Of a stretch of DNA of 64,000 bases, positions 21,595-55,172 are shown piece by piece. The DNA comes from Polytrichum commune (lineage: Eukaryota > Streptophyta > Polytrichopsida > Polytrichales > Polytrichaceae): positions 33,046,001-33,110,000 of the forward strand of contig OX485803.1 of the NCBI GenBank assembly GCA_950295325.1, read 5' to 3'. Position 1 is the stretch's first letter. Every line of letters starts with the position of its first letter. Under the pieces are notes generated by a model. That model made no database searches. It was not told the origin of the DNA and saw nothing but the letters and a program-made list of their open reading frames with translations. The position numbers and the translations under genes were made by a program.

Positions 21595-21652
21595 TCCTAC
21601 AATAAGATGAGGAATTTATTTTATGGGAGTTATTTATAATTATTAAATAAAA

Positions 21653-23095: not shown

Positions 23096-23099
23096 TTTC

Positions 23100-24990: not shown

Positions 24991-24997
24991 TTACACT

Positions 24998-25250: not shown

Positions 25251-25284
25251 ATTCCAAAATTACCTAGAGCAATGCATGTTCAAT

Positions 25285-28200
25285 CTAGACGCCTCCTGTC
25301 GGTACCCCATCCTCAAATTGAACTCCATTGCTCATATGCTCGCTTCTTGTGCATCGATCTAAATTATCCTTAGCGAAGAGAATTTGCCTCGCTGGGATGA
25401 TCACATTGTCATCGGACGCATTCTTTTGTCTTGCCCATGATGCCACAACACAATCCAGAGATTGACGAGCTGGAGCATAATCCTTGAGCCTCGTCCACCT
25501 AAAACATTTTGCGGTGTCCCATTCCTCATAACGATCATCCAATGTCTTCTTGCTCCTCTGCCCAAGGACCGGTACATAATATACAATCTCAATTGAACGA
25601 GGATGAGGACCAACATGTGCTAAATTTGGCTCGGAAATCACTCGTCCCATCCAAACAGGATTAGGACAATCATCACTAGGACGTAGTAAGACATAGTGAC
25701 CGACCCTAATGTGTGCACCCGGACGAAAGGTCTCGGCGGGTCGAGAACTAGCTGGCCCCACATATGCATAGTCGGTCATGTTCTCCTCAAGTAGATGCAC
25801 ATTGTCCTCATGTAGGGCTGTTGCAATCGAGAACCGTGAAGAAGGCCAAAAGGGCTCGCTAAGCTCAGATGGAGTTGGCGGTAAAGGAAGATCCATAGCC
25901 GCAAGCACATTCTCCCAATATGAAATTGTTGGCGCAATGGACTCCATATATTTACCCGAACTATCTTGATCTGCTGTATCCTTCCAATACTTAATAAAAC
26001 CTTGAAGTCCAAGTTTTATGTTGACAGAATCCTTCATCTCCCTTTTTGGGACGGGTCGGGGACAACCTACAAGAACAAACATACATTGAGGTCAGAGCTA
26101 TACCTTGGATTAACGGTCCACGGGCAATCGCCCGTGGGCCACGGACAACACACCTTGTAGTAGGTAGTGCACTTCCATAGCAATACCAACCTCACAACCA
26201 CTAACCTGGTGGGAACATGGTTTTCTTCGTGATTGGATCCACATTCCAGAGCGCAATCCCACCTTTTGGTGACCAACTTGGATCTGTACAAAAAACTTTG
26301 TATTGCATCAATGGCACTCCTTGAGGGTCGACATAAAAACGAAATTGGTGTGCCTTGGAATGCCCTATAAGTCGGTCTTGACCAAACTCACTGTAGTAGC
26401 CTTTCACCCATCCCTTGAAGTCAGCAACCTCATGTATCAAGGACGGGACAATAGTGGGATCCCCAGCAGCCATGAATGACGCCATGAGGTCTGGGAGGGT
26501 ATGGCAATCCTCAATCTTCAGCCTTTGTCCAAACCTACCGAACATTGCATCCACATCCTCATGCGTATGTCCAACAATTAGGAAAGACACCCGGACTTCA
26601 CGAAAGATTCCCTTTGCCGTCAGAGCAGACCAAAACAACATGTTGTATTTTGATTTGTTATCCTTCGCACAATTGTCCATCTAGACAAGCAAGAGGGGTG
26701 GCAAACTCGTAGGTGGAATAATATCGGTTGGTGGTAAAGGAAGTGTTGCTGAACACTTCTCTACACCGACCACCAGTGCATCGTGCAAAGGGTCACCTAT
26801 GGAAGATATAGGAATGTCTCGACTGGAGCACACGGGTTCGACCTCAAGTTGACAAAGCAACTTCATGATGGATGTGATGGTGAAGTTCGCATCAGATGGG
26901 TACATGTCAAGAACATAATGCGCGTAATTCACATCAGAGTGTCCATGTGCAATCATCTCGGCAATGGATATTGGGAACCGCTCGTATTTATCAACACGTT
27001 TGTTTTTGTGCGCGAAAACAGGAAGCGTTGTTTTTCCATAATCCATTTTGTCATGGATGATACAGAGGACCTCATTCGGAGAGTACTTTGATAAGATCCT
27101 ATCTTTATAGTAATTGTTTCTATGGGACTCCTGCAATGATAGATGCCTGTTGCTAGCCTTCGAGATGGCCAAGTACCCAGAAGTGCCTTTTGTATGTATT
27201 CGTAACAAATCCTTGAAAGCTGCACAGGTTCCACAACGCGAGAAGTTGTCACCAGGGTTCTTTATAACATACTGCTTGAAATGTTGCCGATGAAGGCGGC
27301 TTAAATTTGACATAGAGACAGGCGCGTAACCGAGGTCTTTGTCCAAGTCGTTCACTTCTTCCAATAGGTTGGTCCACGTTGTTCCTACAGGGAGCATCTC
27401 CGTTTCAATTTTTTCACCAGTTGGAAGAGTCCGAGTCATATGGGGCATTGAGTCCGCTCTACCTTCAACCAAAACTCCAAGTGTAGCTTGTGCCTGCACT
27501 GTGTTCGCCCTTGGCTTTTTAGTTCCTGTATTCCCATGATCGCGGGCCCTAACCCCCATCAAGCTCTCGGTCTTGTTCCTATTAAATTGTGCCCTTGATA
27601 TCATGTAGATGTTCATCCAAGCACGAGTGCAAACTGTTCTTCCTTCCACAACAACCGTCTCCCTACCACTGTGCTCTTGTCTCTGGATCGTTTGAAACAT
27701 TGCAAGGGCAATGAGCTTCCGGGCATTGAATGGCAATGCAAAGTAGTGTTCCCGAATACTTATCAACAAAGGCCTTGGAAATAACTGGCAACAATGCTCC
27801 TTGCAGCAATCCACCGTAGACAACATCCGTGCCCCCTCCTCAGTGGCTCCCCAAATTCTTTTCCCAGGTGCCCGAGGTGCAGTAATCCTTGCAGTGTTGT
27901 ATCGGCGCTTTCCAAGCAAACGCCGACGACTCGTATCTTCGTGGGTTGCACTATGATGGGCCATCAATATTTCCGCCAATGTATGTCTTTCAAATTTCGT
28001 GAGGGCCAGGGGCCATCGGTGTAGAGTATTCTCCCAATCCCCGGAAATGACATTTCCAGTGGGGTTCAAGATAATAACTCCAACATCTTCATCGCCCAGT
28101 ATATTGTTGTCAACACAATCCAACGGGTTGGTATTGCAAATTAGCCCATCACACAAAGGGCGATCCTCTTCATCAAAGAGAGTAACTGCCTTACCCTTCA

Positions 28201-28786
28201 AGTCCTTCCTCGACAATCCAATGTAATGCGGAATCTAAACATCAAGAATGAAGTAAGTTAATGCACTATAAAACCATATAGAGAACACGCATCATCAAAT
28301 AGACCCTGAGTAGCCAAACTTAACCTTATATTGTGGAATGTATACGCTTATCCATGTAGGTGAAATTGTGGCATGTAGATGAAATTATAACTCCTATGAA
28401 GAAACACGTAATACAAATGTAGTAACTTGCTCCAACAATAACACTAAGATATATAAGCTCAAAAAGAGTACATCCCAGATACTTCCACGGGCGATCGCCC
28501 GTGGGGGCTCTCAACCCCTGGGAGGAGACTACCACGGGCGATCGCCCGTGGGGGTTCTAAACTCCTGGGCGACGACACCCACGGGCGCGCTCGTGAGATG
28601 ACTATACTACTGCTCAAGGGAATTTGAGGTCACCACGGGCGCACCCGTGAGAGGCGCCTCCTATTGATAAGCTAATGCGTTTGGAGACACTACGGGCGCC
28701 CTCGTGGGGGACCCCACGGGCTCACTAGCGTGCAACATTGGATTAGAGACACTAACCTCTTCATCTACTTGAGCCCCTCTCTCCAT
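25285..28786 (-). CDS. DUF7869-like, transposase-like protein (three exons, one in-frame stop)
   Basis: Proposed exons on the minus strand: 28786-28757 (MERGAQVDEE, donor GTTAGT), 28234-26206 (acceptor TTTAG, starting IPHYIGLSRK) and 26066-25285 (acceptor TTCTTGTAG). Phases agree at both junctions. The protein would be about 945 residues. Motifs in order: a cysteine pair (FSRCGTCAAFKDLL), IHDKMDYGKTTLPVF, MDNCAKDNKSKYNMLFW and VGHTHEDVDAMFGRFGQRL. I know these as the signature of a widespread eukaryotic family (DUF7869) often taken for an RNase H-fold transposase, with Asp, Asp and Glu/Asp as candidate catalytic residues. An in-frame TAG at 26683-26681 stands exactly where Gln would precede MDNC (CAG to TAG). 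The last exon is a DNA-element-typical tail without a recognised domain. Both introns contain copies of the 22-bp palindrome. The exon model is inferred, not proven. Confidence 0.7.
26118..26138. repeat. Dispersed palindrome inside intron 2 of the DUF7869-like gene
   Basis: Arms CCACGGGC and GCCCGTGGG around AATC, within the 139-nt intron 26067-26205. Confidence 0.88.
28485..28725. repeat. Cluster of dispersed palindromes in intron 1 of the DUF7869-like gene
   Basis: Two perfect copies (28485-28505 and 28532-28553, centre GATC), then degenerate ones near 28578-28598, 28632-28650 and 28688-28725. The degenerate copies keep CCCACGGGC but have lost the matching right arm. Confidence 0.85.
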
Positions 28787-37983: not shown

Positions 37984-38064
37984 GTGAGTTCCAATTCTTA
38001 TAGTGGATATTTGTGGTGGCAGTGTGAAAAGGGTCAATTTGTTTGTCATGTAGAAAATCAAGCT

Positions 38065-38244
38065 CCACGGGCGAACGCCCGTGGGCTCTATGTGAGTCAA
38101 TGGTTTAGGGTTTAGGGTTGTTGCCCCACGGGCGTTCGCCCGTGGGACTTGTTTGTTTTCATTTAGAAAATCAAGCTCCACAGGCGAACGCCCGTGGGCT
38201 CTAGAACGAGAAGTGGGGCTGCCTCACGGGCGATCGCCTGTGGG
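38065..38244. repeat. Four dispersed palindromes in the intron upstream of the H3-like exon
   Basis: Copies at 38065-38085 (centre AA), 38125-38146 (centre TT), 38178-38198 (one mismatch) and 38222-38244 (two mismatches). Several share the flank GAAAATCAAGCTCCAC, so part of this cluster arose by local duplication. Confidence 0.9.
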
Positions 38245-38357
38245 CCCTGTATGGAGGAAACTAATTAGGTAGTATAAATTAAAAATGAGAATAAATGTTT
38301 GAGTAGGAATGAGACAGCTATATAGATGTATGAATTGAAAACTAGAAGGGGGGAAGG

Positions 38358-39089
38358 CCCACGGGCGAACGCCCGTGGCCCTTGTATGAAGGAAACTAGG
38401 TATGTGAGAGGAAACTAGGCCTTGTATGAAGGAAACTAGGTATATGAAGGAAACTAGGGAATGAATGAGAGAAATAATAGAGGTATAGAATTAAAGATAG
38501 ATGTGAGAAGGCCCACGGGCGTTCGCCCGTGGGCCTTGTATGAAGAAAATTAGATAGAATGTATGAATAAAAACTGAAACTCTCATATGAGAATCATTAT
38601 ACGAATATGAATAAAAGATGAGAATGTTTGAGAGAAGTAAGTGGGTATGTTTGAGAGAAATATGTGTTTGAGAAAATATGAGTATGTGTTTGGGAAATAT
38701 ATTTTTGAGAAATATGTGTTTGAGAGAGATAAATGTTTGAGAGAAATATGAGTATGAAGAAAATTAGACAGATAGTATGAATTAAAGAATGAGAGTGAAT
38801 TAGAATACTAGATAGATGAATGAATTAGAAAAGGAAAGGGGGAAGGCCCACGGGCGAACGCCCGTGGGCCTTCCTCCTTCTCTTTTTTGAGACATAACCA
38901 TGTTTCTTCATATAGCTCCCACGGGCGAACGCCCGTGGGCCTTGTATGAAGGAACCTATCTAGGAACTAAGAATTCAAAAGGGGTTGGCAAGGTCACTGC
39001 CCACGGGCGAACGCCCGTGGGCCTTGCAACCAGAGACTTGGTTTGCAGAGACAAATGACAAGGACTTCCCACGGGCGATCGCCCGTGGG
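38358..39089. repeat. Six dispersed palindromes in the same intron
   Basis: Copies at 38358-38378, 38512-38533, 38847-38868, 38918-38939, 39000-39021 and 39068-39089. Several extend to arms of 14-15 bp (AAGGCCCACGGGCG on the left) and are followed by CCTTGTATGAAGGAA or CCTTGTAACA-like flanks. GAAGGAAACTAGG and GAGAAATATGTGTTTGAGA words between them form minor tandem repeats. Confidence 0.92.
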
Positions 39090-39308
39090 CCTTGTAACAC
39101 AATGTAGAGGCATCTTATAATGTAGAGGCATTCTATTTGGCCATTCTATATGGGCTATATAACAAGCAAATATGTGGTTAACAGTAGCAAATGAAATCAT
39201 CCTTTCTCTTTTGGAAATGTGCAGTATAGTGCAGAACTTAAAATAGACAATGCTTGTTTCATTCAGGTACATAGACGTTTTGAACTGAAATCCTTCTGTT
39301 CATGAGCG

Positions 39309-39339
39309 ATGGCAAGAACGAAGCAGACTGCTCGAAAAG
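39309..39339 (+). CDS. Coding exon identical to the histone H3 N-terminal tail (MARTKQTARK)
   Basis: ATG GCA AGA ACG AAG CAG ACT GCT CGA AAA G, followed by the donor GTAGGA. It reads Met plus ARTKQTARK, all nine first residues of mature H3, including the K4 and K9 positions. The ATG context GCGATGGC is a strong plant initiation context. A competing ATG seven bases upstream, in another frame, ends after 13 codons if unspliced. Splicing over a 98-nt intron (39340-39437, acceptor TACGCAG) gives ...ARK-VSGG, which parallels the STGG of H3. Ala at position 2 favours Met removal, which would expose the free Ala N-terminus that H3 readers recognise. It is not a histone gene: no histone fold follows. 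Confidence 0.8.
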
Positions 39340-39437
39340 GTAGGACAACGGCACCTAAGACAGACTCGACATGTTTCTAGATAGTCGAAAGCATCGACTT
39401 GCCTAGGGTATTAACATGTCCATTTGTTTGTACGCAG

Positions 39438-40321
39438 TGTCCGGTGGAATGTCCAGGACAGTGACCTGGGACATAGTCGATTTGGGAGAGAATGTCAAGT
39501 GGTTCATGCAATATAGTGGCTTTGGGGAGACAACGGTGTTGTCATTGTACACCAAAACAGAGATTGATACTACATGGAGGAGATATATGAAAGCAAAGCA
39601 CGTGTTGGACCTTCAAGCCGATGGAAAAAGGGTTATGATAATGTGCAAGTCTTCAGAGCGAAAGAAGGATTTCAAGGTTGCTGGCTATGTGGACTCGTTC
39701 GCATATGAAGATGTCAATGAAGAGCTAAATCATGAGGGAGAAAATATCAGGTCTACGAATGGCGACTTCCTAACTTATTGTATCATCTACGGCGAGACAA
39801 ACAAGCACACAAAGACCCAAGAGGAGAGAGCATTCATGATCGAGCAGGACTACAAAGCTGCTCTCCGCAGGGTGCAGGTTATAGTGGAGGAGGCAAAGGC
39901 ATCAAGGCTGGAGGCATTATCGAAGAAGAAGCAAATCCGTGAAGGCAAGAGAAAGGCAGGAGATGAGGTTCGAGAGGCGGCAGCGAGGAAGAAAGCAAGA
40001 CAAGATGACGTCCTGGACTTGACTGTACAGGACAATCCCGAAGAAGATGAGAATCAAAGGAAGGGAAAGAAGAAGCCAAGTGATCCTAGTCCTTTCCTAG
40101 AGGTGGAGAAGATTCCAAAGAAGTCGAAGAGTGGGCCGCCGGATAAATCTGTTGGAGATAGGTTGATGGACTTAGAGGTTTTTATGAAGAAATATAGTAG
40201 AGTGTTTATCTTTGGCGAGGGTGTCTCTGGATATGTAAATATCGCAAATGTTGAGCGGGGAGATGCGGGATACAATTGTCGACCCATATCAGAGGCGCAT
40301 TTGAGAGAGATGAAGACGTGA
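39438..40321 (+). CDS. N-terminal region of the H3-mimic protein, with a SIM-like motif and the start of the ParB-like domain
   Basis: Continues in frame from the H3-like exon; together they give a product of about 304 residues before an in-frame TGA (40319-40321). It starts VSGGMSRTVTWDIVDLGENV, a region I do not recognise. A long charged helix follows (EEAKASRLEALSKKKQIREG), with basic nuclear-localisation-like runs (GKRKAGDE, ARKKARQ). At about residue 200 is DDVLDLTVQD, a hydrophobic core flanked by acids as in SUMO-interacting motifs. The end, YVNIANVERGDAGYNCRPIS, fits the first strands of a ParB-like domain that continues after the stop. Even if the stop is real, an H3-tail plus SIM polypeptide could be made. 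The TGA may be a CGA to TGA change, since a preceding C would make a CpG. Confidence 0.6.
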
Positions 40322-42004
40322 CTCTTCAATTTTGCGTTCATGCAGAAGAACCATCCGAACTTTCTGACCATCGTTCCAGCAGATAGAAGTTCGAAGCCAG
40401 GAAGTTTTGAGGAGGTCGAAGACAAGAGATTCCATGTGGTTAATGGACAACACACGTTGGCTGCCTGCCTGGAGTTCGTCAATGACCCAGAGAGCACTCC
40501 GGAGGTGAAGAATTTTTTTTCTCGATGGCCATGCAATGTGGTATGGGCTCCTGAAGGTGATGATGACCCTTTGTTCCATATTTCTGGTGTTCTAAACTTG
40601 GATAGTGAATATAGAAAGCACTATCCAACATGGGTGGAGTGCATTCAGCACACAAGGAAGACGTGGATTCGAAGAGGAAAGCCGCCTCGAACAATCCGGA
40701 AGAGTGCAACCAACAGTGAAGCGTTCAGGAAATGGAAGGAATTCACCACGTGCCTCATGTGGACCTTCCGTGTGGAGAAAGAATCCAATTTGATAATGGA
40801 ACACATCTTCCCGACGTTGGGTGACGAACTCTGGAGAAAGTGGGAGCGAATTTTCATGGATTTTGAGAGAGGCGAGTATATAGACAAGAAAACCCTGGCG
40901 CTGGCGAAGGAGAAGAAGGGTTTTAAACCCAAAAGTGTAGTGAAGAACGACATGAAGCACACTCGCGGCTTGACAAAGGTGGAGCTTGACATGGCAGTGG
41001 ATCAATGTCTGGTCACCAGAGAAGGTGAAGAGTATCCCCGCCATACCTTGAAGACAATTGGTGAGTGGGCATACAATAGGAAGAAGAAGAATGAAACATA
41101 TATTGCGATGGCGGAATGTTTAGATCCCCCCCCACGGTATGTTATTCAAGTTGATCAGAAGAACACTATTGACCGCGACGAATGGCATGCATGGAAGGAG
41201 ACGAACAATTTTAGACGGCTGCAGAGGGAAAGACTACTGGACCTGCTGGGAGCGGATTACCTAGCTGCCGCTTTGAATCCCGCCAAGAAGAAAGTGCCGA
41301 TTCCTGCACGATTTAAGGAGGGAGTGAACAATATACTTAGCACTTGGGTTAGGGAAGTGTCGGAGGAGCACACAGTGTTGTCTATAGACAACAAGTTTCG
41401 GGTTAGTACTGAGGGACAAACGTTTGCTCCAATAACCCATGCTTTCATGGACACGAGGTTTCTTCCAGGAGTTAGGTACGGAGTGGACAGTGGCTTCCGC
41501 GTGAAGGAGATTGTTGAAGGCACTCTGCAAGGTCTTCGTCGGGACCTCCCTGGAATACTGCAAGCCCCACAATTGTGGACTGTCGTGTCGGAGTATCCTG
41601 ATCGACACTTTATACACAATGTGTTGAAGGCGTATCTCCCGTACAATGTGAGGTTTTGTGAAGCCTTGTACAGAGGATGCAGTGAGGAGAAACTTACTTC
41701 GCAAGGCTGCTTTTACCGGAATAGTTCTTTGAGGGTAACGACTTGCATTTTCCCCCAAAAAGGGGAGTCAACCGAAGAGGTAGCAGTACGGATTTGCGGC
41801 GGGAGGAAGATGTTGGACATGCATGACCCCCGAGACTACAAGCGATATTCAGTGAAGAGGGCTTATGCCAGTGAGGCGTCAAGATCCATTTTCAAGGGGG
41901 AGCTCAGGATGCAGACGTACATTGACATCATCAAGCCTTCCTGTCTGGAAGGGACAATTTTCCTTAATGTTTGCGGAGGAAACAAAGCTCATATCGTCGC
42001 ACAT
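40322..42004 (+). pseudogene. ParB/DGQHR-like domain region of the H3-mimic protein (after the in-frame stop)
   Basis: The same frame as the preceding segment, about 561 codons to a donor GTAAAAATT at 42005. Near its start are PNFLTIVPADRS and RFHVVNGQHTLAACLEFVND, the central ParB/DGQHR signature with Thr for the usual Arg (NGQHT for DGQHR). ParB-family domains bind or hydrolyse nucleotides and in bacteria spread from palindromic parS sites; the role in this eukaryotic protein is unknown. The remainder is a large, well-composed region (WRKWERIFMDFERGEYIDKK, PARFKEGVNNILSTWVREVS, YLPYNVRFCEALYRGCSEEK) without a family I know. The codon use looks protein-coding throughout, with no other stop, so the decay is recent. 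Confidence 0.6.
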
Positions 42005-42118: not shown

Positions 42119-43881
42119 GTGCTGGGTATGAAGGTCGTGAACATTGTTCCTGTGGATGTCGTTGGCACGGCAAAGGCAAGAATGTTGGCGGCCGTTGACT
42201 GGAGCCTACAAAGGTGGTATGAAGAAGGGAAGGACTTGGGAGACAACATCGAGGATGAGGATATTGATCGCGAGAGGAGAAGAAAAACGTGCCAACGATA
42301 TCGAAGAGGAGGAGGACGAAGAGGCGGATGATGAAGAGGAGGAGGATGAAGAGGAGATTGATGAGGTGGTGCTTGATGACGAGGAGGATGAGGTTAATGA
42401 GGAGGAGGTTGACGAGGATCCTCGTGAAGAGGAGCACGAGGAAGGCCATGATGAGGGAGATGATTATGATGATGAGGGTGCTCCCCCTGAAGCTCCATTG
42501 CAAGAATTGGGAGATGATGAGGATGAGGGGGATGCAGGTCCATCCCACGGGCGATCGCCCGTGGGGCCTGTTGAGGGAGACTCCCGACTGGCTGGTGGTC
42601 CCGACTCAGAGAGGAGCCTTCAGCCCCCTGGGTCATCATATACATCTGGTATCCCGCCAACTCCGGGGCGCGGATTTCAGCCGTTTGAGGCTTCCCGACA
42701 AAGTCGGGAGCATGAGGAAATCGGAGAAGAGCAAACGCCAAGTGATACTCGGGAACAGGAGATACATGCTCCAAGGTTTACATCGAAGCCGGTTGCTCGA
42801 AAGAAGGTTAAGGCTATCCGACGAAAATCTCTGCGAGCTCCTAGGGGTGGAGAAGCATCTCACTCTTCGGAGGATATAAGACAATCTAGCCGCGATGACG
42901 AGGGCGAGACTGGCGCTGTTCATGAAGGTGAGGTTGACAATGTTGATGATGTAATCGATACTATCATCGATACTATCATGGATACCCAATTGGTGAGTGG
43001 GGAGAGATCAGATTTGAACGTGTCTTCACCTGTGGAGGAGGTTGCTGCGGCCGTTCTAGAGGTCCTAGGACAAGCGCGCCCAAATGTGGAGCCCTCTGCA
43101 GCCGTGGTTGAGGAGGAACCTGCAGCTGCTTTGGCTTCAGGAGAAAAAGAGACGGTCATCCGGACAGAGGTCATTTGCCTGGACAGCGATGATGATATGC
43201 CCCAGAGACGTGTTGATATGGATGTGCGGGTTAAGGTGAAAGACCCGGTTCCATATCGTGTTCAGGGAACGTTTGCCGATTATATGACAGACGACTCGGA
43301 GGACGAGGACTACGGCAAGCCTGGGTACAGCAGGGTGAAACTAAGCTTCGCTGATGATCATCACCCCCTTTTTGCGGCAAGACCTCCACCGAACGCATCC
43401 GACAAGGACAAGGGCAAGGGCAAGGAGTCAGATGAGAAGGACAAGGTCCATTTTGCGCCTTTCGTGGACAAGTATTTGTCGGAGGTTCCGGAGAATGTGC
43501 GCTTGAACCTGAGCAACATGTACAAGTCCTATGACTATCACAAGATGTTTGCGTATCTCTCCACGCCAGCGTTTTGTGCAGCTGTGAAGGTCAAGCATAT
43601 CCTCCATGCTGCCTCGTTGAAGAAAATGCGAAAGAGGTGGACATTCTTCGATGCCCCACCAGAACGTCCAGGACGAGGTCAAGGTCAGGGAGCCGCTGTT
43701 GGGCAAGCTCAGAGTGTTGTTGACTCTACGCTGGAGGTTATTGACATTAGCGGAGCACAGGAATCTCCCGTCCGTGAAGTCCATGTTGGAGCTGCTGGGT
43801 CCTCAAGCCCTCGTGATCATCGTGCGAGTTCCCCTGTCCGTCCCGACGCTGCCTCAAGTTCACCGGGCCCTCGAGCTGAAG
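42119..43881 (+). pseudogene. Acidic, SIM-containing middle region of the H3-mimic protein (one frameshift)
   Basis: After the acceptor TTTTTGCAG it reads VLGMKVVNIVPVDVVGTAKA in phase with the previous exon. Near 42268-42285 (GAGAGGAGAAGAAAAA) the frame must change by one to continue. It then enters an acidic tract of about 60 residues made almost wholly of Glu and Asp, like those of histone chaperones. Further on are TEVICLDSDDDMPQ and LEVIDISGAQES, canonical SIM-like motifs, and a conserved-looking block YLSEVPENVRLNLSNMYKSY. A 22-bp palindrome at 42544-42565 is translated as SHGRSPVG. It ends at a donor GTATGC (43882). Acidic plus SIM motifs suggest a chromatin role; this is inference. 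Confidence 0.6.
42544..42565. repeat. Perfect copy of the dispersed palindrome inside a coding exon
   Basis: Arms CCCACGGGCG / CGCCCGTGGG around AT. In the open frame it gives SHGRSPVG without disturbing the frame. Confidence 0.95.
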
Positions 43882-43995: not shown

Positions 43996-44953
43996 GTCGC
44001 TCATTGGAGGATCAAGTGCCAGTGACGGTACGGGATTCTGCTAGATTTCGCCTAACTAATTGATTGCGTAGCTACTTTGCCCTCTTATGTATGCTATACT
44101 TATATCTAACCATAATATTGTTTCGTTAGATGAGAATCCATTAGAATGACTTTCGATTTTGTCATCGCCAGATCCCCACCTCTCCAAGTACAGTTGTTCA
44201 CCGGAGAGAGAAGATATGGTTAGTGCTGGATGTGAACGGGATTCTGGTGAGGAACGCAAAGTGCGACAATCAACACCAGGAAGGCACTTGATTCACAACA
44301 TAGCCCGTTAATAAGTGGGGAAGTGGCTCCACTATTTCTCCCTTATAGTGCCGTCATTCCCAGGAAGGGATTGGGACGGTTCTTGCGCTTTGTGCTTTCA
44401 AACTTCCATGTTGTCATTTGGTCCTCCAAGCTTTTGAAGAATCTCAAGCCAATTGTCCAATACTTCTTCAAAGGTTGTAGGCAGCCTGAGTATGTATTCG
44501 GCCAGGAGATGTGTCAAGTTTTGGCCGATGAGCGCAGAAAGAGTTTACCCAGTCCTGTGAATGTTGAGTCAAGCTTCTTCATCAAGGACCTCTGCGCATT
44601 TTTTGAGTGGAGTCGGATGCATCCCCTGCCGCATTCGAAGCCACCTACTCATAGAACCACATTGCTTGTTGATGACTCCCCTTACAAGTGCATAGCAAAC
44701 CCTTCAGGGAGTTACATTAATCCCCCCCCCTTTTCTGTCAAACCAGAGCTTGGATACTCTCCATAATTACTTGCAAAACCTTTTGACTTCACAACTTTAT
44801 GTTCCAGATTTTGTAGGGAGCAACCCTTATCCATCAGGCCAGGGACCCTTCAATCTAGAGTTACCAAATTCACAGATATATAAGAATGCGTTGGCTAGAC
44901 ATAGAGAAGTGACTACGGATCGTAGAATTCCAGCGGCGCAGATGCCAATGTAG
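43996..44953 (+). pseudogene. FCP1-like (HAD) phosphatase domain, frameshifted
   Basis: A 32-nt exon (43996-44027, RSLEDQVPVT) and the exon from 44172 join in phase. The latter encodes REKIWLVLDVNGILVRN, the first HAD motif in the D-x-N form I know from plant FCP1-like proteins (nucleophile Asp kept, second Asp replaced by Asn). A frame change near 44275-44290 leads to VIPRKGLGRFLRFVLSNFHV, VIWSSKLLKNLKPIVQYFF (motif II with Ser) and TLLVDDSPYKCIANPSGSYI (motif IV, DD). A second frame change at the poly-C run near 44719-44728 leads to LDTLHNYLQNLLTSQLYVPD and a stop at 44951-44953. FCP1-type domains dephosphorylate RNA polymerase II tails. Here catalysis is doubtful because of the Asn and the frameshifts. 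Fusion to the upstream protein rests on matching splice phases. Confidence 0.65.
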
Positions 44954-45410: not shown

Positions 45411-45908
45411 CGACAGCATGGTGCAGATGCTGATGCGGACTTCGCCGAAGTGTCGTCACCGTGTCCTAAGGTAATTCATTTGCCATTTGAATGCCCATTT
45501 GCATTTGTTTCTTATCCCTGGGGATTTTCATAATATTGCGTTATGTTGTTCTTGTAGGCACATATGCTCCAATCACGTGATGTCGCGATTGCGGTTGCGG
45601 TTGAAGCTCCGGTCACAATGCCGCACCCTCGGGCGAAGAGACAACTTGCTCTCCAAACCGCTCGCCCTAGTGAGCCTACGGGTTCTGGAAGTAGTTCAGG
45701 ATGTTGGAAGTGCGGCTCTCCCAAGGCTACATCATCAATGTCTGATTACATTGCTACAAGGGTGAAGCAACTTCATGATGCCACAATTCTGATGAATGAC
45801 AAGCTTCGTGTTGAAGAGCTAAAGCGCAAGCAACAAGCTGCAGCTCAAAGAGAACTCCATGACAAGATATTGCAAAGGATTAAAGATTCATACTCCTATT
45901 GTGCTTAG
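45411..45908 (+). CDS. Hypothetical protein, at least two exons, coiled-coil C-terminus
   Basis: A first coding exon near 45415-45470 (HGADADADFAEVSSPCPK) ends at a donor GTAATTC, and the second starts after TTCTTGTAG at 45559 with AHMLQSRDVAIAVAVEAPVT. It then has SEPTGSGSSSGCWKCGS, with one Cys pair, and a helical C-terminus MSDYIATRVKQLHDATILMN followed by DKLRVEELKRKQQAAAQREL, ending at TAG 45906-45908. The frame is open and splice phases agree. No family is recognised. It lies between two copies of the 22-bp palindrome, so it probably belongs to the same locus, either as a separate small gene or as 3' exons of the larger one. Confidence 0.45.
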
Positions 45909-46125: not shown

Positions 46126-47962
46126 TGTGAGGCCAAACCCCCCACCCTTAAGCGTCCGTAGTCCGAGTAGTGGGTTTGGGCTCACATTCCTCCGCGGTAT
46201 TGGATTTGGACTTGGATGAGTCCATAGTGCAAGGTGACTATTAAGAAATACTTATGTGACTTATGTCAATCTCTCCCTCGCACCTTTGGTCTTTGCTTCC
46301 TTTGTCTTGCCATCGCGAGAGTGCTCCACATTCTCCATTAATTTGTGCACGTGGTTTATTTTTAAAGAGAGGATGCAAGTGTTAAAAAAAACACTATTCT
46401 CTATAGTCAATCTCAAATACATTTACTTGTGAAAGCCACCATAACACTAACTAGCATAATGTAACTAACTACTTGTCTATGAGCTAATTAGGTAGGCTAT
46501 CTACTTAGCTCCTTCATGAACCCATCTCTTTACTTTCTAATTACATAAACCTAGCTCCTTCATAAACCCAGCTCCTTCATAAACCCAGCTTCTTAGCTTC
46601 TAACTAAACAAACCCAGCTCCTTCATAAACCCAGCTCCTTCATGAACCCAGCTCCTTAGCTTCTAACTAAACAAACCCAGATCCTTCATAAACCCAGCTC
46701 TTTACTTTCTAACTAAACAAACCCAGCTCCTTCATAAACCCAGCTCCTTCATGAACCCACAACTTTGTAGTTGTAATCCCCAACTACCTCACTAATTATT
46801 CAAGCCCTTAACTAATCTTCCTACCTAATTTCCCTAATTCTACTAACAACCCCTTTCTAATCACACAATTCTTCTCTAATCCTAAAATCCTAAAATCCTA
46901 GAGAGGAGAGGGGGAGAGAGAATTTCCTAACTTCACTAAGACTAACTAATCCACACAAGTATATTTTTGCAGTCATCACAACATCAAGTGCTCAACTCTT
47001 AAACATGGAACTTGCAACCACGTGTATTCAAAACATGAACTTAAAGTACCACAAATTGGAATCATGAATTAACTTTAAAATCCTTCACGTCAACACTAAT
47101 TCTACCAAGAGGTCAAGCCCTCTTCAAGGCTAACAAGCCTTGGCTCTCAAACTAAAAACTAAGCACACACATGTGCTCCAATATGGCTTCCCACACCCAC
47201 ACTTATAACTCGTGGGGTGCCTTGGAGCACAAAGGAAAGAGAGGATGAGTGAGGGAAGAATGAGGGATTATATAGTAAGCTTGAGGGGGTGAGCACCCTC
47301 AAGGCTCACGATAAGCCCTTGAGATTTCCTCCTACTTAGTAGGCGCCAATCCTATCTTCTAAGCCTTCCTCCCTCAAATGATCAACAAGGATCCTAATTC
47401 GAACATTTAACTAGCCTTGGCTTTCTACCTACCACACTTTACCAAACTTGGGATGCTTCAACCCAAACTTAGCCTCCTTCGCTTTCCGCCGCCATAACTT
47501 TCTCCCCTTACTTTCCCAAATCGTCGCTCACCACTTAATTCAAACCACGATGCTTAACTCGTGATTTGATTGGTGCTTTGAGAATTTGCTTATCCTCCAC
47601 CTTGCATTCTTCCTTGGGCCTTCCCCATTAAGTGGCCATGATGAGGTGGTCCACTTGTGCGCTCCATGTGATCCTCCATTCATCCCAATTTGAATGCACT
47701 TGCCTCTTGAGTCACTTTGGTTGTCTCCATCCATTTGTACTAGCCTACTCACTAACTACTCAATCCAAGTTCTCCTTACCTCAAATCCTTCCGAAGGTAA
47801 AAACACAATAACAACTCACATCCTAGCCTCTTACAACATGGTACTTCTAAGACTAACATTTCACTCTTTTTATATTTTTGTGAAGTAACATGCTACTTCA
47901 AAGTGCATCAACTAACGTTTCAAGGGTCTAAGACTAAATGTGGGCACCCTTTTGGGCTCACA
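46126..47962 (-). repeat. 3' LTR of the gypsy element (with an internal deletion)
   Basis: 1837 bp. Compared with the right LTR it lacks about 315 bp between GTGCAAGG and TATTAAGAAATAC, replaced by TGAC. It contains a tandem block AACCCAGCTCCTTCATAA / AACCCAGCTCCTTAGCTT-type at about 46550-46760. Confidence 0.92.
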
Positions 47963-47990
47963 TAATTGGCGACCATCGGGGGATGAATCC
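47963..47990. promoter_or_regulatory. PBS-like sequence at the wrong end, no polypurine tract
   Basis: Next to the 3' LTR the plus strand reads TTGGCGACCATCGGGGGA, which looks like a plant gypsy primer-binding site in the opposite orientation to the gag-pol. On the minus strand, where a purine tract should precede the 3' LTR, none is seen. Confidence 0.4.
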
Positions 47991-48023
47991 AAACATCTCT
48001 TGCTCCAAGGGTAAGTTGCCTAG

Positions 48024-51000
48024 TCAAGCTCGGTACTCCTTACATCTACTTCCCGATGTACGGGTAGGAAAGAGCTCACCATTCAACGTTTCCAATTGAA
48101 TTGAATTATTAGGAAAGACCTCATAGACAAGGTAAGGTCCTAACCATACCGCATTGAATTTCGCCGGAAATTCAAGCTTTCGTGCGTCTTGAATCATGAC
48201 CATCATTCCCGGTGTTAGGGCCCTTCTCTTATGTCGTTTGTCGAAAGTAATCTTTCTCCTTCTTTGGATTGCCTCAATATGTTGAGCCGCCATTCTCCTC
48301 CCTTCGTCAAGTGCTTCCAAATCGGTTAGTCGATTTCGTAAGGATTGACTTTCGGTAAGTCTCGTACTCACGGCCACCCTAAGTGACTCGACTTCATATT
48401 CGATTGGTAGTGTCGCTTCAAGACCATAGACTAAGGAAAATGGTGTAGCACGCGTAGTTACCTTATAGGTTGTACGGTATGCCCAAAGTGCCGCCGTTAG
48501 TTTCGTATCCCAATCCCGCTTCGAGTCTATAACCGTCTTGCGTAGTATACTCACCAAAATTCCGTTAACCCTTTCCGTTTGTCCATTGGTTTGTGGGTGG
48601 TAGGGAGTAGTCTTCCGGTGATCAATTTTAAATTTCTCTGTCATCTCTCGAATCAAGTCATTCAAAAAGTGAATACCCCTATCGCTTACTAGGATCTTCG
48701 GCACCCCGAACCGCGAAATTATGTTTTCGTACATAAATGTTGCCGCGTGTTCCGCCGTGTCGGTCTTCACCGCTTTGGCTTCCGCCCATTTGGTGAGGTA
48801 CTCGGTTGCCACCACAATATATTTCATTCCTTTTGAAGATTGGGGATGGACCTCACCCACATAGTCGATGCCCCATTTTTCGAAAGGAATTAAGGGTAAT
48901 GATACATGTAAAGGCATCTCCATTCTAAGGTCGTTTCGGGCATACCGTTGGCAAGCGTCGCATTTCCTTACATAGTCATGGGCGTCCTTAAATAGTGTAG
49001 GCCAAAAGTAGCCCGCTCTAAGTATTTTTTGCCCGGTGAGTTGACCCGAGAAGTGACCGCCGCAAGCGCTATCGTGGCAAGCGATTAAAATCGCTTCAAC
49101 CTCCGTTTTTGACACGCATCGTCGTAAAATACCATCGGACCCCCTTCTAAACAACCTATGGCCCACTACAACAAATTGCCTACTATTTACCCTCACCTTC
49201 CTTCTCTCTTCTTTTGTCCACTCTTTGGGCAACTTGTGGGTTGTTAGAAATTCCACTATGCCCGCATACCACTCCGGTGTAGAAGTGACCACAAAGAGGC
49301 TATCATCTACTAACATATCATTTACCGGATTTTTTCCTATCTCCTCCGACAACCTAGACAAGTGGTCCGCTTGTAAATGCATACGACCCGGTTTATATTC
49401 CACCGTGTAGTCGAATTCTTCTAATAACAAAACCCACCTAGCTAACCTACCACTTAACTCCGCCTTGTTAATTAGATACTTGATAGCCATGTGGTCAACA
49501 AAAAATACAACCGGGTTGCACATGAGGTAATGCCTAAACTTTTTAACGGAAAACACCATGGCTAGGCACTCCCTCTCCGTCGTAGAGTAGTTTCTTTCGG
49601 CGGGGGTCAATTGCTTACTCGCATAAGCTATAGGTTGATCCTTCTCTTTTTCTCCCGTTGCTTGACAAAGCGCACTCCCTATTGCCACATTACTAGCATC
49701 ACAATAGACGTGAAAAGGTTTACCCCAATTGGGTGGTATCAACACCGGATAGGTGCTCAACCTATCCCGCAATTCCTCAAAGGCTTTTTGACAAGCATCC
49801 GTCCACTCGAATTTGACATCCTTTTTTAGCAAATGGGTAATGGGCACCGCTATCTTTGAAAAATTAGGAATAAGTTCCCGGTACCATCCCACATGTCCTA
49901 ACAACTTAGAGATCCCCTTGGAATTGGTTGGAGTTGCCAAGTCGCTTATGGCCGCAATCTTATCCGGATCGGGTTCTCTACCTTTCTCACTAACAACATA
50001 ACCCAACAACACTCCCTTATTCACTCCCAAAAATGTCTTATCCGGGTTTAATGCTAACCTCATCTTCCTACACCTAACCAATGCCTCCCTAACACAATGT
50101 AGGTGATCATCCACATTACTTTGTGTGCTAAAATCGTCCACAAAGACGGTCATGGATTTGAACAACAAGTCGGTGAAGATATACATTACTAATCGTTGGA
50201 AAGTAGCCGGGGCATTACATAACCCAAATGGCATCACTACCCACACAAAAGTACCCCAAGGTGTAGTAAAAGCCGTTTTATGGATATCTTGGAGGGCTAT
50301 GGAAATTTGATTATAACCCGCATACCCATCCATAAAGGTATATCGCGAATGACCTCCAACCTCCTCAAGCAACAAGGTGATAAAAGGTAAGGGGAAGTGA
50401 TCCTTTTGTGTGCACGAATTCAATTTCCTATAGTCGACACAAACCCTTAATTTCCCATTTTTTTTCTTTACTAAGACCATAGGAGAAACCCAATCCGTGA
50501 TTTCCACCGGCTTGATAAACCCGGCCTTCAATAACCTTTCCAATTCCGCTTTCACCAACAATTGCAATTGAGGATTCATCCTCCTCTCCTTTTGTCTAAT
50601 TGGCCTCGCCCCCGGAATTAAAGGAATCCGGTGCTCTACCATTTCCCTAGGAATTCCCTTAAGCTCATCGTAGGACCATGCAAAAGTATCACTAAACTCA
50701 TCCACCAAATTGCTATACTCCCTAACCTCTTTCTCCCCCAATTTGGAGCCCATCTTCATTTGTCGGGTTTTTCCATTCTTTAATTTCACATCCACGTACC
50801 GCCAATCCGCTTCCGACACATGTGCTTGTTCCTCTTTGTTCCGATACCAATCGGAAGGCACATTGGGGTAATCTTTCACATCTTGACCTACAACTATCCC
50901 CGTAGACGTGGTCTTGAAATGTAAAGGCTCCTCCAATTTCGATGACTCAATAATCACATCCTCCTCTTGAGTCCCATCTACATGAATTAAACTAACCTCA

Positions 51001-54000
51001 CCCTCTTCCACGTCATCTACCCAAGGTGTTAACCCACCGCTAACCCACTCTTCCTCGGTGAGCACCTCACATGGCTCCAACAATGAGCCCTCTCCTAAAC
51101 TAACACTAGGAAATTCACTCCCTAAGCCTACTTGGTGAAATGTAACCATTACATCAACCTCGGACTCGGGGTACTCCCTTAGCCATTGGGCATAATCCCC
51201 ATTATCCCCATAATTGTAAAAATTAGGACCTAGACTTCCCGAGCCCGAATCTATAACAACCCTTTGACCTTCGGGATGGACGACTCCCACCAATGCCTTG
51301 CCAATCTCATTCTCGTTTAAGTCATCAATTTCCTTCTCCAATGGCAAATACATCTCCTTCTTCATCCATCCTTCTAATGAACCAATGGACACTATGACCC
51401 TATTACCCTCCGGACCATAAGTGATGGATGGTTTAGGTCCACCCCAATTGACCATAGCATTCGCCATCCGCAACCAAGGCCTACCTAGCAAAATGGGGAA
51501 GGTGTCCTTGTTGGAGTGCATTTTAATGACATGGAAGGTGACCAAGTACTCCTCACCTCCCGTAGTCATTCTACAATCCTTGATCATCCCCAAAGGCGTA
51601 GTCGAACTTTGATTTGCCATATTTATGACCAAAGGTGAAGGCCCCGTGAGTCCAAGTCCCAATTTTTTCATAGTATCCTCCGGTAGTATATTTAGACTAC
51701 TCCCTCCGTCGACTAGCACATTAGGAACCACCTTATCTACTATAACAACTTCTATTTCTATAGCTTTCACGTCTCTTCCACCTTGTGATTGGATCCTAGC
51801 GGCTATTTTAGCTTTCACCTTCCTCATCCTCTTGTGTACCGGCATTCCCTCCTTTAATGTTTTCCTTGCCGTGGGTGAAATTTCCAATAGTTGGCCGAAA
51901 GTAATATCCGCCTTGAGTGTACTAAGGTCCGCCCACAAGTCGTACCCGGTAGATCTTTCCACCTTAGAATTACCCACTACGTCGAATTCGTCTACGGGAA
52001 CCCCCGGTCCTTCCCATTCACCCACATCGCTATTATCCAAGTCATGTACCGCATTAGTCCTCTCCCTATCTTGTAAAATTATATTTTCCCTCTCCACATC
52101 CTTAGTAGCTCTTCTAGCTACCCTATCCAACTCGGAGAGATTAATCTCTTCATCCGAAGAGTAATTTCCTTGCTCTCCTATTCCTACCTCCAACGGGGCA
52201 TCCCCTCTCCTAGCCCTAGTAGTTACCGCTAGTGCAGGTGCTTCTTCAACCACACCCTTACCCTTCACTAACTCATATGTAATAGCATTGGTGTGAGGAG
52301 GCCATTGACTTTGCTCCTCTCCAATTCTCGTTGGGAGAGGAAGCATGTCATCACATGTGGCCTCCAACACTCCATCCATGAACCTAACATCTTGGAAGTT
52401 AGATGGTCCCGGATCCGTTGGAGGCGCTTGTCTCCCGTTACTACCATTAGGTGGAACTCCTTGTCTATTTTGTATTGGAATGTAACCGGTTGTAGTTTGC
52501 AAGCCCGCCGGTGGATGAAAAGTTTGCCTAGCATTACTATGGTCATAGTATAAGTTAGGTGGCCTAAGTTCATTGGCCGGTACTCCTTGTGGCCTAGCAC
52601 CTCGCATATTATCCCTTGCTTGTTGTTGTGGATTAGCCACCGGGTAAGGGACATTAATTATTTTGTCCGGTTGGCGACACGTATCCGAGGGATGACTTCC
52701 TCCACAATTGCTACAATTAAATTCTTGACCTTCGGACCAACATTGTCCTTGAGCGTGCCACCTTCCACAAAAGGGATGAAATTCCTTCTTCTCTAAATTT
52801 TGGCCACCTTGCCCTCTAGGTTGTGGTCCTCTATTGCTTCCATTTCCATAGTGAGGTGGCGCTTGACCTCGTTGATTTTGTTGAGGTGGGTTACCGTTTC
52901 CTCTTTGGTCACGGTTTTGTCCACTTCTACAAAATTGACGCGTGTGGCCCGGTTGGCCACATTGGACACACCATAATCCGGAAGAATGCCTACCCGACTC
53001 AACCGGGGGTGGAGGCCCCGGTTGTTGACTCCGGATCATTAATGACATTTGATCCGTGAGGCTTTGCATTTGTTTTATCATAGCCTCTTGGAATCCTAGT
53101 TGGCTAGCACCTAGTCTTCTCTCAACCTCCTCCAAGTGTGGATCCGTTCTAGGGGCCGGTAGTGCCAAAAGAGGTGCCGGTTCCCTAACCGCTAAAGGTC
53201 GGGGACCGGTGTCCACAATGGCATATGGAATTTGGTTCTCATACTTAGCGGGTTCTACCGCTACCACCCTAGGGCGTATGGGGATGAATTGTGGGATCAA
53301 TTCATCCTCCCTTCTCCATAGCCTTTCGTGATCTTTATCCAAGTTTTCAATATCTCTAGCCGCACGCTTGGCATCCGCCAAGGTCAAGGGATTCCTTTCT
53401 AGAACACCCCTAATAGTTCCGGACTTAAAAAACCCTTGAATGAAAAATTGCTTTAGCGTGTCGTCGTTGAGCATGGTACCCACAAATCTAGTGCACACTA
53501 AATCAAACCTCCTAATGTAAGCCGAAATTTCTTCCTCCCTTCCTTGCTTCAATGACGACAATGCCCTTAATGCGGTACTTTGACCCACTTCCGGCCTAAA
53601 TTCGTTAAGAAACTCCCTTTGTAATTGTTCCCATCCCCTAAAATGTCCCTCGGCATGATCCCGATACCATTCATAGGCTTCCCCCTCTAGAGTGGTAGGA
53701 AACCACACTAACCAATAACCCGGGTCGGTTATGAGGAAGCTAGCCAACCGTTCGATATACCGTTCCATGTGCCGAGAGGGGTCCTCATCCTTGGTCCCAT
53801 AAAATTTAGGGAGATGAGATGGCATATCCATCGCCGCTAAATTTTGTGGAACCACAATTGGTAGGCCTCTTGGCCTAACCAATGGGTCTATTGGAGGTAT
53901 AGGAGGTATGGGCGGAATTGGGGGTATGGGTGGTGGATCCATCCCCCGTTCCTCGGCCATGGTGACCGGTGAACTATTCAACAATCCCCTATCAACTTCT

Positions 54001-54263
54001 ACCGGGAATTCTTCTCTAAGTGTGTAATTTTCCGAAGAAGTTTCACCACTCAATTTGGAGGGAGTGATCTCCTCTTCAAGTTGAGCTCCAAGTTCTAAGG
54101 TGTCTAGAATTGACCTAGTCCTAGGTTCGACGTTCAAACAACTCTCTATTCTAACATTATCTTGTTCTAATCTATCACTGATTTTAGAGGACCGCCTCTT
54201 CCGAGTAGATTTCTCTAGTCCTACTATCAAACTTGGTTTTTGTGAGCGAGTCCTACCTTGCAT
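48024..54263 (-). CDS. Ty3/gypsy Gag-Pol polyprotein
   Basis: A single open frame of 2079 codons. In order: a Gag capsid-like region (about residues 140-320, with EAYEWYRDHAEGHFRGWEQL); a CCHC knuckle CVQCGQPGHTRQFC near residue 430; a second Cys-rich segment, CSNCGGSHPSDTC; a protease with VLVDGGSSLNIL near 848; a reverse transcriptase with PFGLCNAPATFQ and VFVDD near 1374; RNase H with VYCDAS near 1521; an integrase zinc finger (CHDSACGGHFSG ... CDACQRY) near 1735; and an integrase core with DDE residues near 1797, 1861 and 1893 (SDRGIHF, TNGQTERVNG). The PR-RT-RH-INT order defines Ty3/gypsy. I see no chromodomain after the integrase. The protease type suggests the non-chromovirus branch. 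Catalytic residues appear intact. It would be made from a genomic RNA started in the right LTR. Confidence 0.95.
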   Translation of the reverse strand: MQGRTRSQKPSLIVGLEKSTRKRRSSKISDRLEQDNVRIESCLNVEPRTRSILDTLELGAQLEEEITPSKLSGETSSENYTLREEFPVEVDRGLLNSSPVTMAEERGMDPPPIPPIPPIPPIPPIDPLVRPRGLPIVVPQNLAAMDMPSHLPKFYGTKDEDPSRHMERYIERLASFLITDPGYWLVWFPTTLEGEAYEWYRDHAEGHFRGWEQLQREFLNEFRPEVGQSTALRALSSLKQGREEEISAYIRRFDLVCTRFVGTMLNDDTLKQFFIQGFFKSGTIRGVLERNPLTLADAKRAARDIENLDKDHERLWRREDELIPQFIPIRPRVVAVEPAKYENQIPYAIVDTGPRPLAVREPAPLLALPAPRTDPHLEEVERRLGASQLGFQEAMIKQMQSLTDQMSLMIRSQQPGPPPPVESGRHSSGLWCVQCGQPGHTRQFCRSGQNRDQRGNGNPPQQNQRGQAPPHYGNGSNRGPQPRGQGGQNLEKKEFHPFCGRWHAQGQCWSEGQEFNCSNCGGSHPSDTCRQPDKIINVPYPVANPQQQARDNMRGARPQGVPANELRPPNLYYDHSNARQTFHPPAGLQTTTGYIPIQNRQGVPPNGSNGRQAPPTDPGPSNFQDVRFMDGVLEATCDDMLPLPTRIGEEQSQWPPHTNAITYELVKGKGVVEEAPALAVTTRARRGDAPLEVGIGEQGNYSSDEEINLSELDRVARRATKDVERENIILQDRERTNAVHDLDNSDVGEWEGPGVPVDEFDVVGNSKVERSTGYDLWADLSTLKADITFGQLLEISPTARKTLKEGMPVHKRMRKVKAKIAARIQSQGGRDVKAIEIEVVIVDKVVPNVLVDGGSSLNILPEDTMKKLGLGLTGPSPLVINMANQSSTTPLGMIKDCRMTTGGEEYLVTFHVIKMHSNKDTFPILLGRPWLRMANAMVNWGGPKPSITYGPEGNRVIVSIGSLEGWMKKEMYLPLEKEIDDLNENEIGKALVGVVHPEGQRVVIDSGSGSLGPNFYNYGDNGDYAQWLREYPESEVDVMVTFHQVGLGSEFPSVSLGEGSLLEPCEVLTEEEWVSGGLTPWVDDVEEGEVSLIHVDGTQEEDVIIESSKLEEPLHFKTTSTGIVVGQDVKDYPNVPSDWYRNKEEQAHVSEADWRYVDVKLKNGKTRQMKMGSKLGEKEVREYSNLVDEFSDTFAWSYDELKGIPREMVEHRIPLIPGARPIRQKERRMNPQLQLLVKAELERLLKAGFIKPVEITDWVSPMVLVKKKNGKLRVCVDYRKLNSCTQKDHFPLPFITLLLEEVGGHSRYTFMDGYAGYNQISIALQDIHKTAFTTPWGTFVWVVMPFGLCNAPATFQRLVMYIFTDLLFKSMTVFVDDFSTQSNVDDHLHCVREALVRCRKMRLALNPDKTFLGVNKGVLLGYVVSEKGREPDPDKIAAISDLATPTNSKGISKLLGHVGWYRELIPNFSKIAVPITHLLKKDVKFEWTDACQKAFEELRDRLSTYPVLIPPNWGKPFHVYCDASNVAIGSALCQATGEKEKDQPIAYASKQLTPAERNYSTTERECLAMVFSVKKFRHYLMCNPVVFFVDHMAIKYLINKAELSGRLARWVLLLEEFDYTVEYKPGRMHLQADHLSRLSEEIGKNPVNDMLVDDSLFVVTSTPEWYAGIVEFLTTHKLPKEWTKEERRKVRVNSRQFVVVGHRLFRRGSDGILRRCVSKTEVEAILIACHDSACGGHFSGQLTGQKILRAGYFWPTLFKDAHDYVRKCDACQRYARNDLRMEMPLHVSLPLIPFEKWGIDYVGEVHPQSSKGMKYIVVATEYLTKWAEAKAVKTDTAEHAATFMYENIISRFGVPKILVSDRGIHFLNDLIREMTEKFKIDHRKTTPYHPQTNGQTERVNGILVSILRKTVIDSKRDWDTKLTAALWAYRTTYKVTTRATPFSLVYGLEATLPIEYEVESLRVAVSTRLTESQSLRNRLTDLEALDEGRRMAAQHIEAIQRRRKITFDKRHKRRALTPGMMVMIQDARKLEFPAKFNAVWLGPYLVYEVFPNNSIQLETLNGELFPTRTSGSRCKEYRA

Positions 54264-55172
54264 TCCATAAGAATCGATCGACCCTCACTTGACCACACAT
54301 AATCCTAACAATTCCCCTCTTAATATTTTCACTTGTCTTGGTGTGGTTATAATTTTTTTAGGAGGTGAGGAAAAGAACCTGCAAGCCCACTTAGGTGAAA
54401 GAATCCCAATAGGGGATAGGCATGTTCATGTTAATTTTTTGGTTAAGTCGGAGCATCACCTCCGCACCTTCCCGCAAATTAACACTCACCACAATACCGA
54501 TTGTGAGGGGGTGACCTTCCGAGTAGATTATGTTAAAAGTCGAGGCTTCACCCTTCAACTTCTCACACCATCCACAATTCGGGAATTATCCTCTACAACG
54601 GATAACAACAATCACGAGTACAAAAGGCATTCCTTAATTAGTTAATGAGTTCACTTTGAAGAAATAAACATACCTTGAGCAATCGCATCCCCCTGTGAGT
54701 TAGCACTCCCCTCAATCGTGACTCAATGTAACAACACCATAAACTTTGTGAAATATTAATTTAATCTAGAGCATGAAATGACAACTCCCAAAACTTTGAG
54801 ACTCACCCCGAGGTGAGTGTCAAAGTTCAATGTCCTAAGGTGAATTTACCCTCTAATGTTTTAATGAGCTACTCGGTTATAGGTTCCTTTTAAGTTCTTA
54901 GCAAATCCCCAAAAAGGTTGAGGACGTACCTTCGCCGCGCTCCTTCCTCAAAAATGAATTTGCGTAATTGACAATGCAATTCATTCCAAGGAATAGTTGA
55001 AATACAATGAATTCAAATGTAACCCAAAGAGAGAATACTTACCGAGTTTCGGGTGCTCCTTCCCTTCTCTCAAGTTTGTGTCTCCAATTTTTCCTAGTTG
55101 CCTCCAAGTCTCCTAGTCGCCTCCAAGTCTTGTAACTACCTTCCGCTTCGCTCCCGGCGGACGCACCAATTA
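54264..55172 (-). other. Leader between 5' LTR and gag
   Basis: About 900 bp of untranslated leader with no supported frame. The first bases next to the LTR hold the primer-binding site. Confidence 0.6.
55151..55168 (-). promoter_or_regulatory. Primer-binding site of the gypsy element
   Basis: Read on the minus strand four bases after the 5' LTR: TGGTGCGTCCGCCGGGAG. The TGG start complements a tRNA CCA end. It does not match the initiator-Met type, and I cannot assign the tRNA. Confidence 0.5.

Follow-up and report, generated by a model that had tools for sequence, protein, structure and literature searches.

Histone sequences, or peptides resembling the H3 tail, are known from several parasite and host proteins. 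The viral mimics of the H3 tail named in the part of PMC10208167 available to us are influenza NS1 (ARSK), SARS-CoV-2 ORF8 (ARKS) and HDV S-HDAg (KXXR). In the accessible text of PMC3538342, a hAT element of Pyrenophora tritici-repentis carries an H3-like gene, H3L, and an extract of PMC9145170 describes a bracovirus histone, CvBV-H4, that acts through its N-terminal tail, with other viral histones also known. SNAG-domain transcription factors such as GFI1 recruit LSD1 (PMC7649360, in the portion at hand).

Here we analyze a 64,000-nt stretch of Polytrichum commune DNA (the window) containing a gene whose predicted protein starts with the exact H3 tip, encoded on a small exon of its own. The comparisons that follow hold for the systems as those excerpts present them. 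Like the viral mimics, the protein would be a parasite's non-histone protein that copies an H3-tail motif used by host chromatin factors, but theirs are four-residue motifs, that of NS1 being C-terminal, whereas here the first nine residues are exact, at a potentially free N-terminus, on their own exon and in a gene family repeated within a plant-like genome. The Pyrenophora element likewise combines mobile or repeated DNA with H3 sequence in many copies, yet H3L is a separate ORF with a globular domain, while here only the tail is present, fused to an unrelated large protein. CvBV-H4 and the other viral histones share the parasite-encoded histone sequence and differ in retaining the histone fold, which was not found in the tail-bearing family. 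The SNAG domain mimics the H3 tip only loosely; the likeness is that an N-terminal peptide on a DNA-binding protein docks a chromatin enzyme, and the difference is that here the residues are identical and DNA binding is putative. Among the matches listed in the open-licence literature, none described a plant repeat or transposon with a fused H3 tip, and none of the nearest systems, as far as these excerpts go, joins the exact H3 tip to an unrelated large protein encoded by a plant gene family in many copies.

Results

The H3 tip of the window copy

Positions 39309-39339 of the window (plus strand, 31 nt, ATGGCAAGAACGAAGCAGACTGCTCGAAAAG) encode MARTKQTARK and the first base of codon 11, and are directly followed by GTAGGA. 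An in-frame TGA at 39303-39305 is separated from the ATG by a single codon, so that the methionine is the earliest possible residue of this frame in exon 1. The ATG context is strong (GCGATGG), as the first-pass annotation had stated; another, weaker ATG is found 7 nt upstream, out of frame. The same annotation had held a chance match to be very improbable, and indeed ARTKQTA-coding stretches occur once in the 64-kb window and in none of 100 shuffles. Splice motifs and the comparison with a database protein, P0006, delimit a predicted phase-1 intron of 98 nt (39340-39437, plus strand, GTAGGA...GCAG); its acceptor, GTACGCAG, ends at 39437, and exon 2 begins in phase as VSGGMSRTVTWD. Joining exon 1 to VSGG gives MARTKQTARKVSGGMSRTVTWD as the spliced reading of the window copy, with MARTKQTARKVSGG as the predicted product. 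This start, ARTKQTARK-VSGG, equals H3 1-13 at 11 of 13 positions, the differences being S10 to V and T11 to S, and the likeness extends to the GG of positions 12-13.

P0006, which was found by its exon 2 and is about 70% identical, reads MARTKQTARK, then a 102-nt intron by read-through, and then VSGGMSR. Between it and the window copy exon 1 is identical (10/10 residues), and codon compatibility is 86% over the opening 40 codons of exon 2 (0/5000 shuffles). The introns show a weak likeness when compared from the 5′ end (53%, equalled by 48/5000 shuffles and lying mainly in the first 6 codons) and none from the 3′ end (46%, 1390/5000 shuffles). The putative splice from exon 1 to exon 2 is thus supported by the window sequence and by P0006, and the first-pass reading of this junction was borne out also by 37 of the 38 genome copies described below.

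The beginning of intron 1 (window 39340-39375 and other copies) is itself kept: 22 of the 30 long loci encode GITTIPMCTSM there, and the first 6 codons of the intron are 83% codon-compatible between the window and P0006; retention of the intron would yield a short H3-tip peptide of 23 residues in the window copy and of 25 in many others. A derivation of the intron from H3 coding sequence, starting at codon 10, was unsupported: 504 of 3000 nucleotide shuffles reached its score, as did 577/3000 with the first 6 bases held and 1418/3000 peptide shuffles.

Downstream, exon 2 (39438-42004, plus strand) encodes VSGG, a candidate PH-like domain with a long helix, a basic linker, a conserved region containing NGQH and a C-terminal half; its 3′ end at 42004 was placed by comparison with P0007 and by a GT. 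The predicted conserved body of exon 2 is about 855 residues long. A putative exon 3 (42119-43881, plus strand), delimited by splice-like sites and P0007, would encode an acidic region and VICLDSDDD. At 42544 it includes a palindrome in frame (P0007 residues about 556-580), which adds HGRSPVG to the coding sequence in the manner of a hairpin insertion. Pfam and the reading frames further mark a region of NIF/FCP1-like phosphatase fold (44170-44766, plus strand, LVLDVNGILV ... LVDDSPYK), where the ORF at 44251-44766 matches the Pfam family NIF with an E-value of 3.6e-7 and 30.4 bits against a cut-off of 21.8; this region may be the C-terminus of the tail-bearing protein or a neighbouring gene. 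A short basic/coiled-coil ORF (45558-45908, plus strand), whose membership in the gene is uncertain, has no Pfam family above the cut-off. The window copy is damaged, with an in-frame TGA at 40319-40321 in exon 2 and a frame change near 42.29 kb relative to P0007.

The tail across the source genome

Exact ATG-ARTKQTA starts were found 55 times in the 407.8 Mb genome and never in the reversed control. Seventeen of them are H3 genes, which continue with STGGKAPRK, and none of these 17 places has the tail-bearing gene family nearby. The remaining 38 all begin copies of the tail-bearing family, on contigs C1-C7, and were examined on stretches of 6.5-6.9 kb (30 copies, including the window) or of 301 bases (8 copies). 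No family copy shows the STGGKAPRK of histone H3; instead, a GT directly follows the 31-nt exon in 38/38. MARTKQTARK is encoded in 37 of the 38 and MARTKQTAHK in one, L030, a rearranged copy with no recognisable acceptor. The codons after A7 lay outside the first search pattern, which fixed the residues through A7, and in them R8 is kept in 37/38 and K9 in 38/38. In 37 of 38 copies an AG at the expected place leads in phase into V[SP]GG, a count obtained by a script seeking that very motif, and in the 15 copies whose intron length was determined (window included) the intron is 97, 98, 102 or 103 nt long.

A relaxed search, free at the residues that the first pattern had fixed, allowed up to three mismatches over 34 positions and reported 57 sites, 37 without mismatch, 17 with one and three with two, against none in the reversed control; its counts cover copies that have exon 1 and lie within three mismatches. 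K4 and K9 are intact at all 57 sites, and so are A1, T3 and Q5. The full nonapeptide is present at 37/57 and the other 20 depart from it (17 A7T, two of them also R2K, one A7S, one T6I and one R8H), so the nonapeptide is not inviolate; some of the departing copies, not all, are visibly decayed. Family sequence was recognised at at least 55 of the 57 sites. Among the 19 sites new to this search, the family motif was detected automatically at 16 (L077 without a found acceptor) and by eye at L081; L065 splices to VSGGVG and then diverges, and L078 has no family sequence within its 301 bases. The recurrent A7T is a G-to-A change at 17 of the 57 tail sites (e.g., L064-L070, L081, L082), in differing subfamily backgrounds, as would be expected if methylated cytosines on the opposite strand had been deaminated. 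The earlier claim that a repeated, element-like protein mimics the H3 tail at its extreme N-terminus is therefore strongly supported, with MARTKQTARK in 37/38 exact-start copies and K4 and K9 in 57/57.

Relatives and apparent selection on the tail

The first-pass annotation had named intact relatives without such a tail as a refutation of its claim, and wherever exon 1 could be seen the outcome favoured the claim. Of the 42 database proteins, P0006 alone extends far enough upstream to inform on the tail; the other 41 are fragments or begin past exon 1. P0006 and the window copy fall on opposite sides of the midpoint split of the protein tree (100/100 support). We compared five subfamily representatives, chosen by us as one per subfamily out of the 30 long loci. 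Over the 14 codons of the tail and VSGG they differ at 4-9 synonymous and 0-1 nonsynonymous positions, and over the next 384-385 codons of the same representatives pS is 0.36-0.78 and pN 0.08-0.19. The tail codons and the VSGG codons alike vary between subfamilies almost solely at silent positions (VSGG: GTATCGGGAGGT, GTGTCCGGTGGA, GTATCTGGGGGC, GTCTCCGGAGGA and others). Given change that is nearly all synonymous, the retention of K4 and K9, and a P0006 tail across the deepest split, the tail seems to be ancestral and is apparently under purifying selection. We consider it very probable, on these sequence comparisons, that it is a real and selected mimic of the H3 tail.

Palindromes upstream of the family

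An array of 22-bp palindromes of the form CCCACGGGCG(AA/TT/AT)CGCCCGTGGG lies upstream of the tail exon (38064-39089) and includes 10 of the window's 18 near-copies of CCCACGGGCGNNCGCCCGTGGG, all 18 of which fall within 24,997-45,977. Between the array and the ATG, CTATATAA (39155-39162, plus strand) is a possible TATA box by its letters and may be a chance occurrence. Perfect GC-rich palindromes of 22 bp were found upstream in 30/30 long family loci, 164 in total within 1.1 kb, a number that, like the copy counts, is inflated by near-identical copies, versus none in 12 H3 loci (65,755 bp, covering all 17 H3 places). They are mostly spaced by 47-48, 53-54 or 56-57 nt, and the nearest one starts 175-276 nt before the ATG.

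Two versions of the palindrome exist and were never found mixed. Twenty-three loci carry CCCACGGGTG...CACCCGTGGG upstream and no exact CCCACGGGCG...CGCCCGTGGG, and the other seven the reverse. A protein tree with 49 rows, 21 labelled as one class, 5 as the other and 23 unlabelled, separates the classes by a single change (100/100 support), and the two versions follow the deepest protein split. Six of the labelled rows are database proteins whose class was read from translated palindromes (C for P0001 and P0029; T for P0005, P0008, P0011 and P0012), and since P0011 and P0012 group among the source genome's own copies, four database rows are independent. Palindromes occur in 10 of the 42 database proteins, four of these 10 being outside the tree. 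Such pairing of palindrome and lineage is what one would expect if the protein bound the palindrome, but it would also arise from common descent by itself.

Other palindrome families (GGCCGTTAACGGCC, GAGGCACATGCCTC, GGTGTCTCGGTACCGAGACACC) are found in repeat arrays of the window (1405-2095, 21645-23800 and 59240-59539), and a further array lies in L019, 4528-5500 after its ATG; each family is perhaps tied to another element family.

Homology and fold searches with the protein body

Searches with the main protein found no Pfam match above the cut-off for the exon-2 pieces, a best Pfam E-value of 0.036 for 24 family members, no NCBIfam match and a best PHROGs E-value of 0.098. No histone family appeared in the Pfam scans of the exon-2 and later ORFs and of relatives. 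Against solved structures, one search gave nothing at E≤1 and another a single match at E 2.1; fold searches listed nothing for the middle region, whose structural model is poor. Relatives of the main protein were absent from viral contigs, GTDB contigs, plasmids (by DNA) and phages (by protein), and H3-tip DNA was absent from viral contigs. No DNA-binding fold was demonstrated in the protein body. The NGQH motif and the palindromes had raised the idea of a ParB/parS system, which was unsupported: an hhalign comparison of 35 middle-region sequences with seven plasmid ParBs gave a probability of 0.90% and a score of 18.35, only slightly exceeding the top score among 30 column shuffles (17.7), the N-terminal domain scored 12.96 (8.94 when reversed), and tblastn of the ParB-candidate region against plasmids gave two chance-level matches (E 2 and 3).

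Mobile-element-like character and neighbouring elements

Copy number, near-identical copies and decay point to a family that is mobile-element-like. Stops occur within the first 420 codons past the junction in 10 of the 29 copies with a found acceptor, and 19 are stop-free. Some copies share roughly 1.2 kb of upstream flank at up to 100% identity, and the upstream homology ends at differing distances. No element ends, target-site duplications or transposase or integrase of its own were found for the family.

The window holds further elements. Two DUF7869 ORFs on the minus strand (26201-28234; E 1.2e-34 on 26201-26680 and 0.0046, below the cut-off, on 26681-28234), which we take to resemble a transposase-type fold, are surrounded by palindromes of the tail-gene type (24997-28552), a candidate link to the tail family; no paper on DUF7869 was found in the open-licence literature. 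A Ty3-type LTR element (46239-57324, minus strand) with a single open frame of 2086 aa and LTRs 99.4% identical is a young insertion immediately downstream of the tail gene. Collinear inverted-repeat blocks at 20329-22586 and 57327-59629 are 83-94% alike, with unmatched stretches between, and the right block ends where the Ty3 LTR starts. These blocks (20.3-22.6 and 57.3-59.6 kb) are at most candidate ends of one giant element. A LINE matches zf-RVT, a domain biased to plants, at 1.1e-5, just below the cut-off, which suggests a plant host. Rfam and tRNA scans of the window were empty.

Discussion

Our preferred reading is that of a mobile-element-like family whose protein carries the exact H3 tip on its own small exon and whose tail engages H3 factors at the element's DNA; we give it a probability of roughly 0.55. 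The initial methionine would be removed, as position 2 is alanine, leaving the free N-terminus ARTKQTARKVSGG. Host H3K4 writers or PHD-type readers would then treat the free tail as they do that of H3, reading or modifying it most likely at K4. In the accessible part of PMC12551112, MLL4-WRAD can methylate ARTKQTARK in vitro as a bare peptide, and in that of PMC5415848 residues A1-K4 of ARTKQTARKS add a beta strand to the PHD finger that binds this peptide. That the tail acts by engaging such H3-tail factors is somewhat more likely than not. The rest of the protein would carry it to the element's DNA, possibly via the palindromes upstream of the promoter, and the element would thereby bear nucleosome-independent docking sites of the H3-tail kind, which may promote its expression or protect it against silencing. 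The function proposed in the first-pass annotation, that the protein may recruit or titrate chromatin factors and possibly so evade silencing, is plausible. Action of the protein at its own palindromes is possible but doubtful. In its fullest form the proposal describes a plant selfish-element family that builds its own chromatin signal, where the protein would bind the promoter palindromes and display H3 tips, host H3K4 machinery would mark and read the protein and not the nucleosome, and protein lineage and palindrome version would have changed together; we regard this version as rather speculative and hold it to be somewhat unlikely.

Position 10 is valine and not serine, so the predicted protein is not a full H3 mimic. 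This departure, together with the strictly kept A1, T3, K4 and Q5, leads us to prefer recruitment of the K4 type, at the promoter of the element itself, to the two alternatives that turn on K9. In one, the tail of an abundant protein would act as a decoy that titrates or inhibits H3K9/H3K4 enzymes (H3K9 methyltransferases, LSD1-type demethylases) and so weakens the silencing of all copies in trans. K9 is as intact as K4 (57/57), the match reaches GG, many near-identical copies exist, and ARK is the consensus core of non-histone G9a/GLP targets, according to the excerpt of PMC6172828; but S10 is V in all 37 copies whose junction was read, high expression would be required, and the conserved exon 2 body and the palindromes are left unexplained, which makes a decoy unlikely. 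In the other, the K9-methylated tail would be a beacon that draws the silencing machinery to the family's copies and limits their spread. There is a precedent in the same excerpt, where MPP8 binds ATF7IP at a methylated site resembling H3K9 and proviruses are silenced later when that site is mutated (PMC6172828), K9 is intact at 57/57 sites, and the recurrent A7T is what C-to-T decay of methylated copies would give. Self-silencing is, however, hard for selection to maintain in a selfish family and K4 is as strictly kept as K9, and we find such self-restraint quite improbable.

The remaining alternatives dispense with reading of the tail. Some purpose other than chromatin reading could maintain it, such as N-terminal processing, protein stability or the splice site, or selection could act on a short peptide made when the intron is retained, in line with the somewhat conserved intron start (83% over its first 6 codons; GITTIPMCTSM in 22/30 long loci). 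None of these would require residues 1-9 of H3 to be matched exactly while synonymous codons vary freely, and VSGG, past the splice site, is kept too, so that we see little chance for them. A passive relic of a captured H3 5′ exon, persisting by chance and recent copying, is the least credible: an H3-like gene on a hAT element is indeed described from a fungus (PMC3538342, in the text available), but the synonymous sites of the tail have strongly diverged between subfamilies while the residues have not, the tail is common to both sides of the deepest split, and no H3 remnant was detected in the window intron (504/3000 shuffles).

In the literature examined, as far as the excerpts go, histone mimics are short motifs of animal viruses. 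If the preferred reading is true, the tail-bearing family would be a genomic parasite that exploits the H3 code itself, and its protein would offer a natural tool for separating the action of H3 readers and writers on the tail from their action on the nucleosome, with the linked palindrome arrays as a directly testable targeting system.
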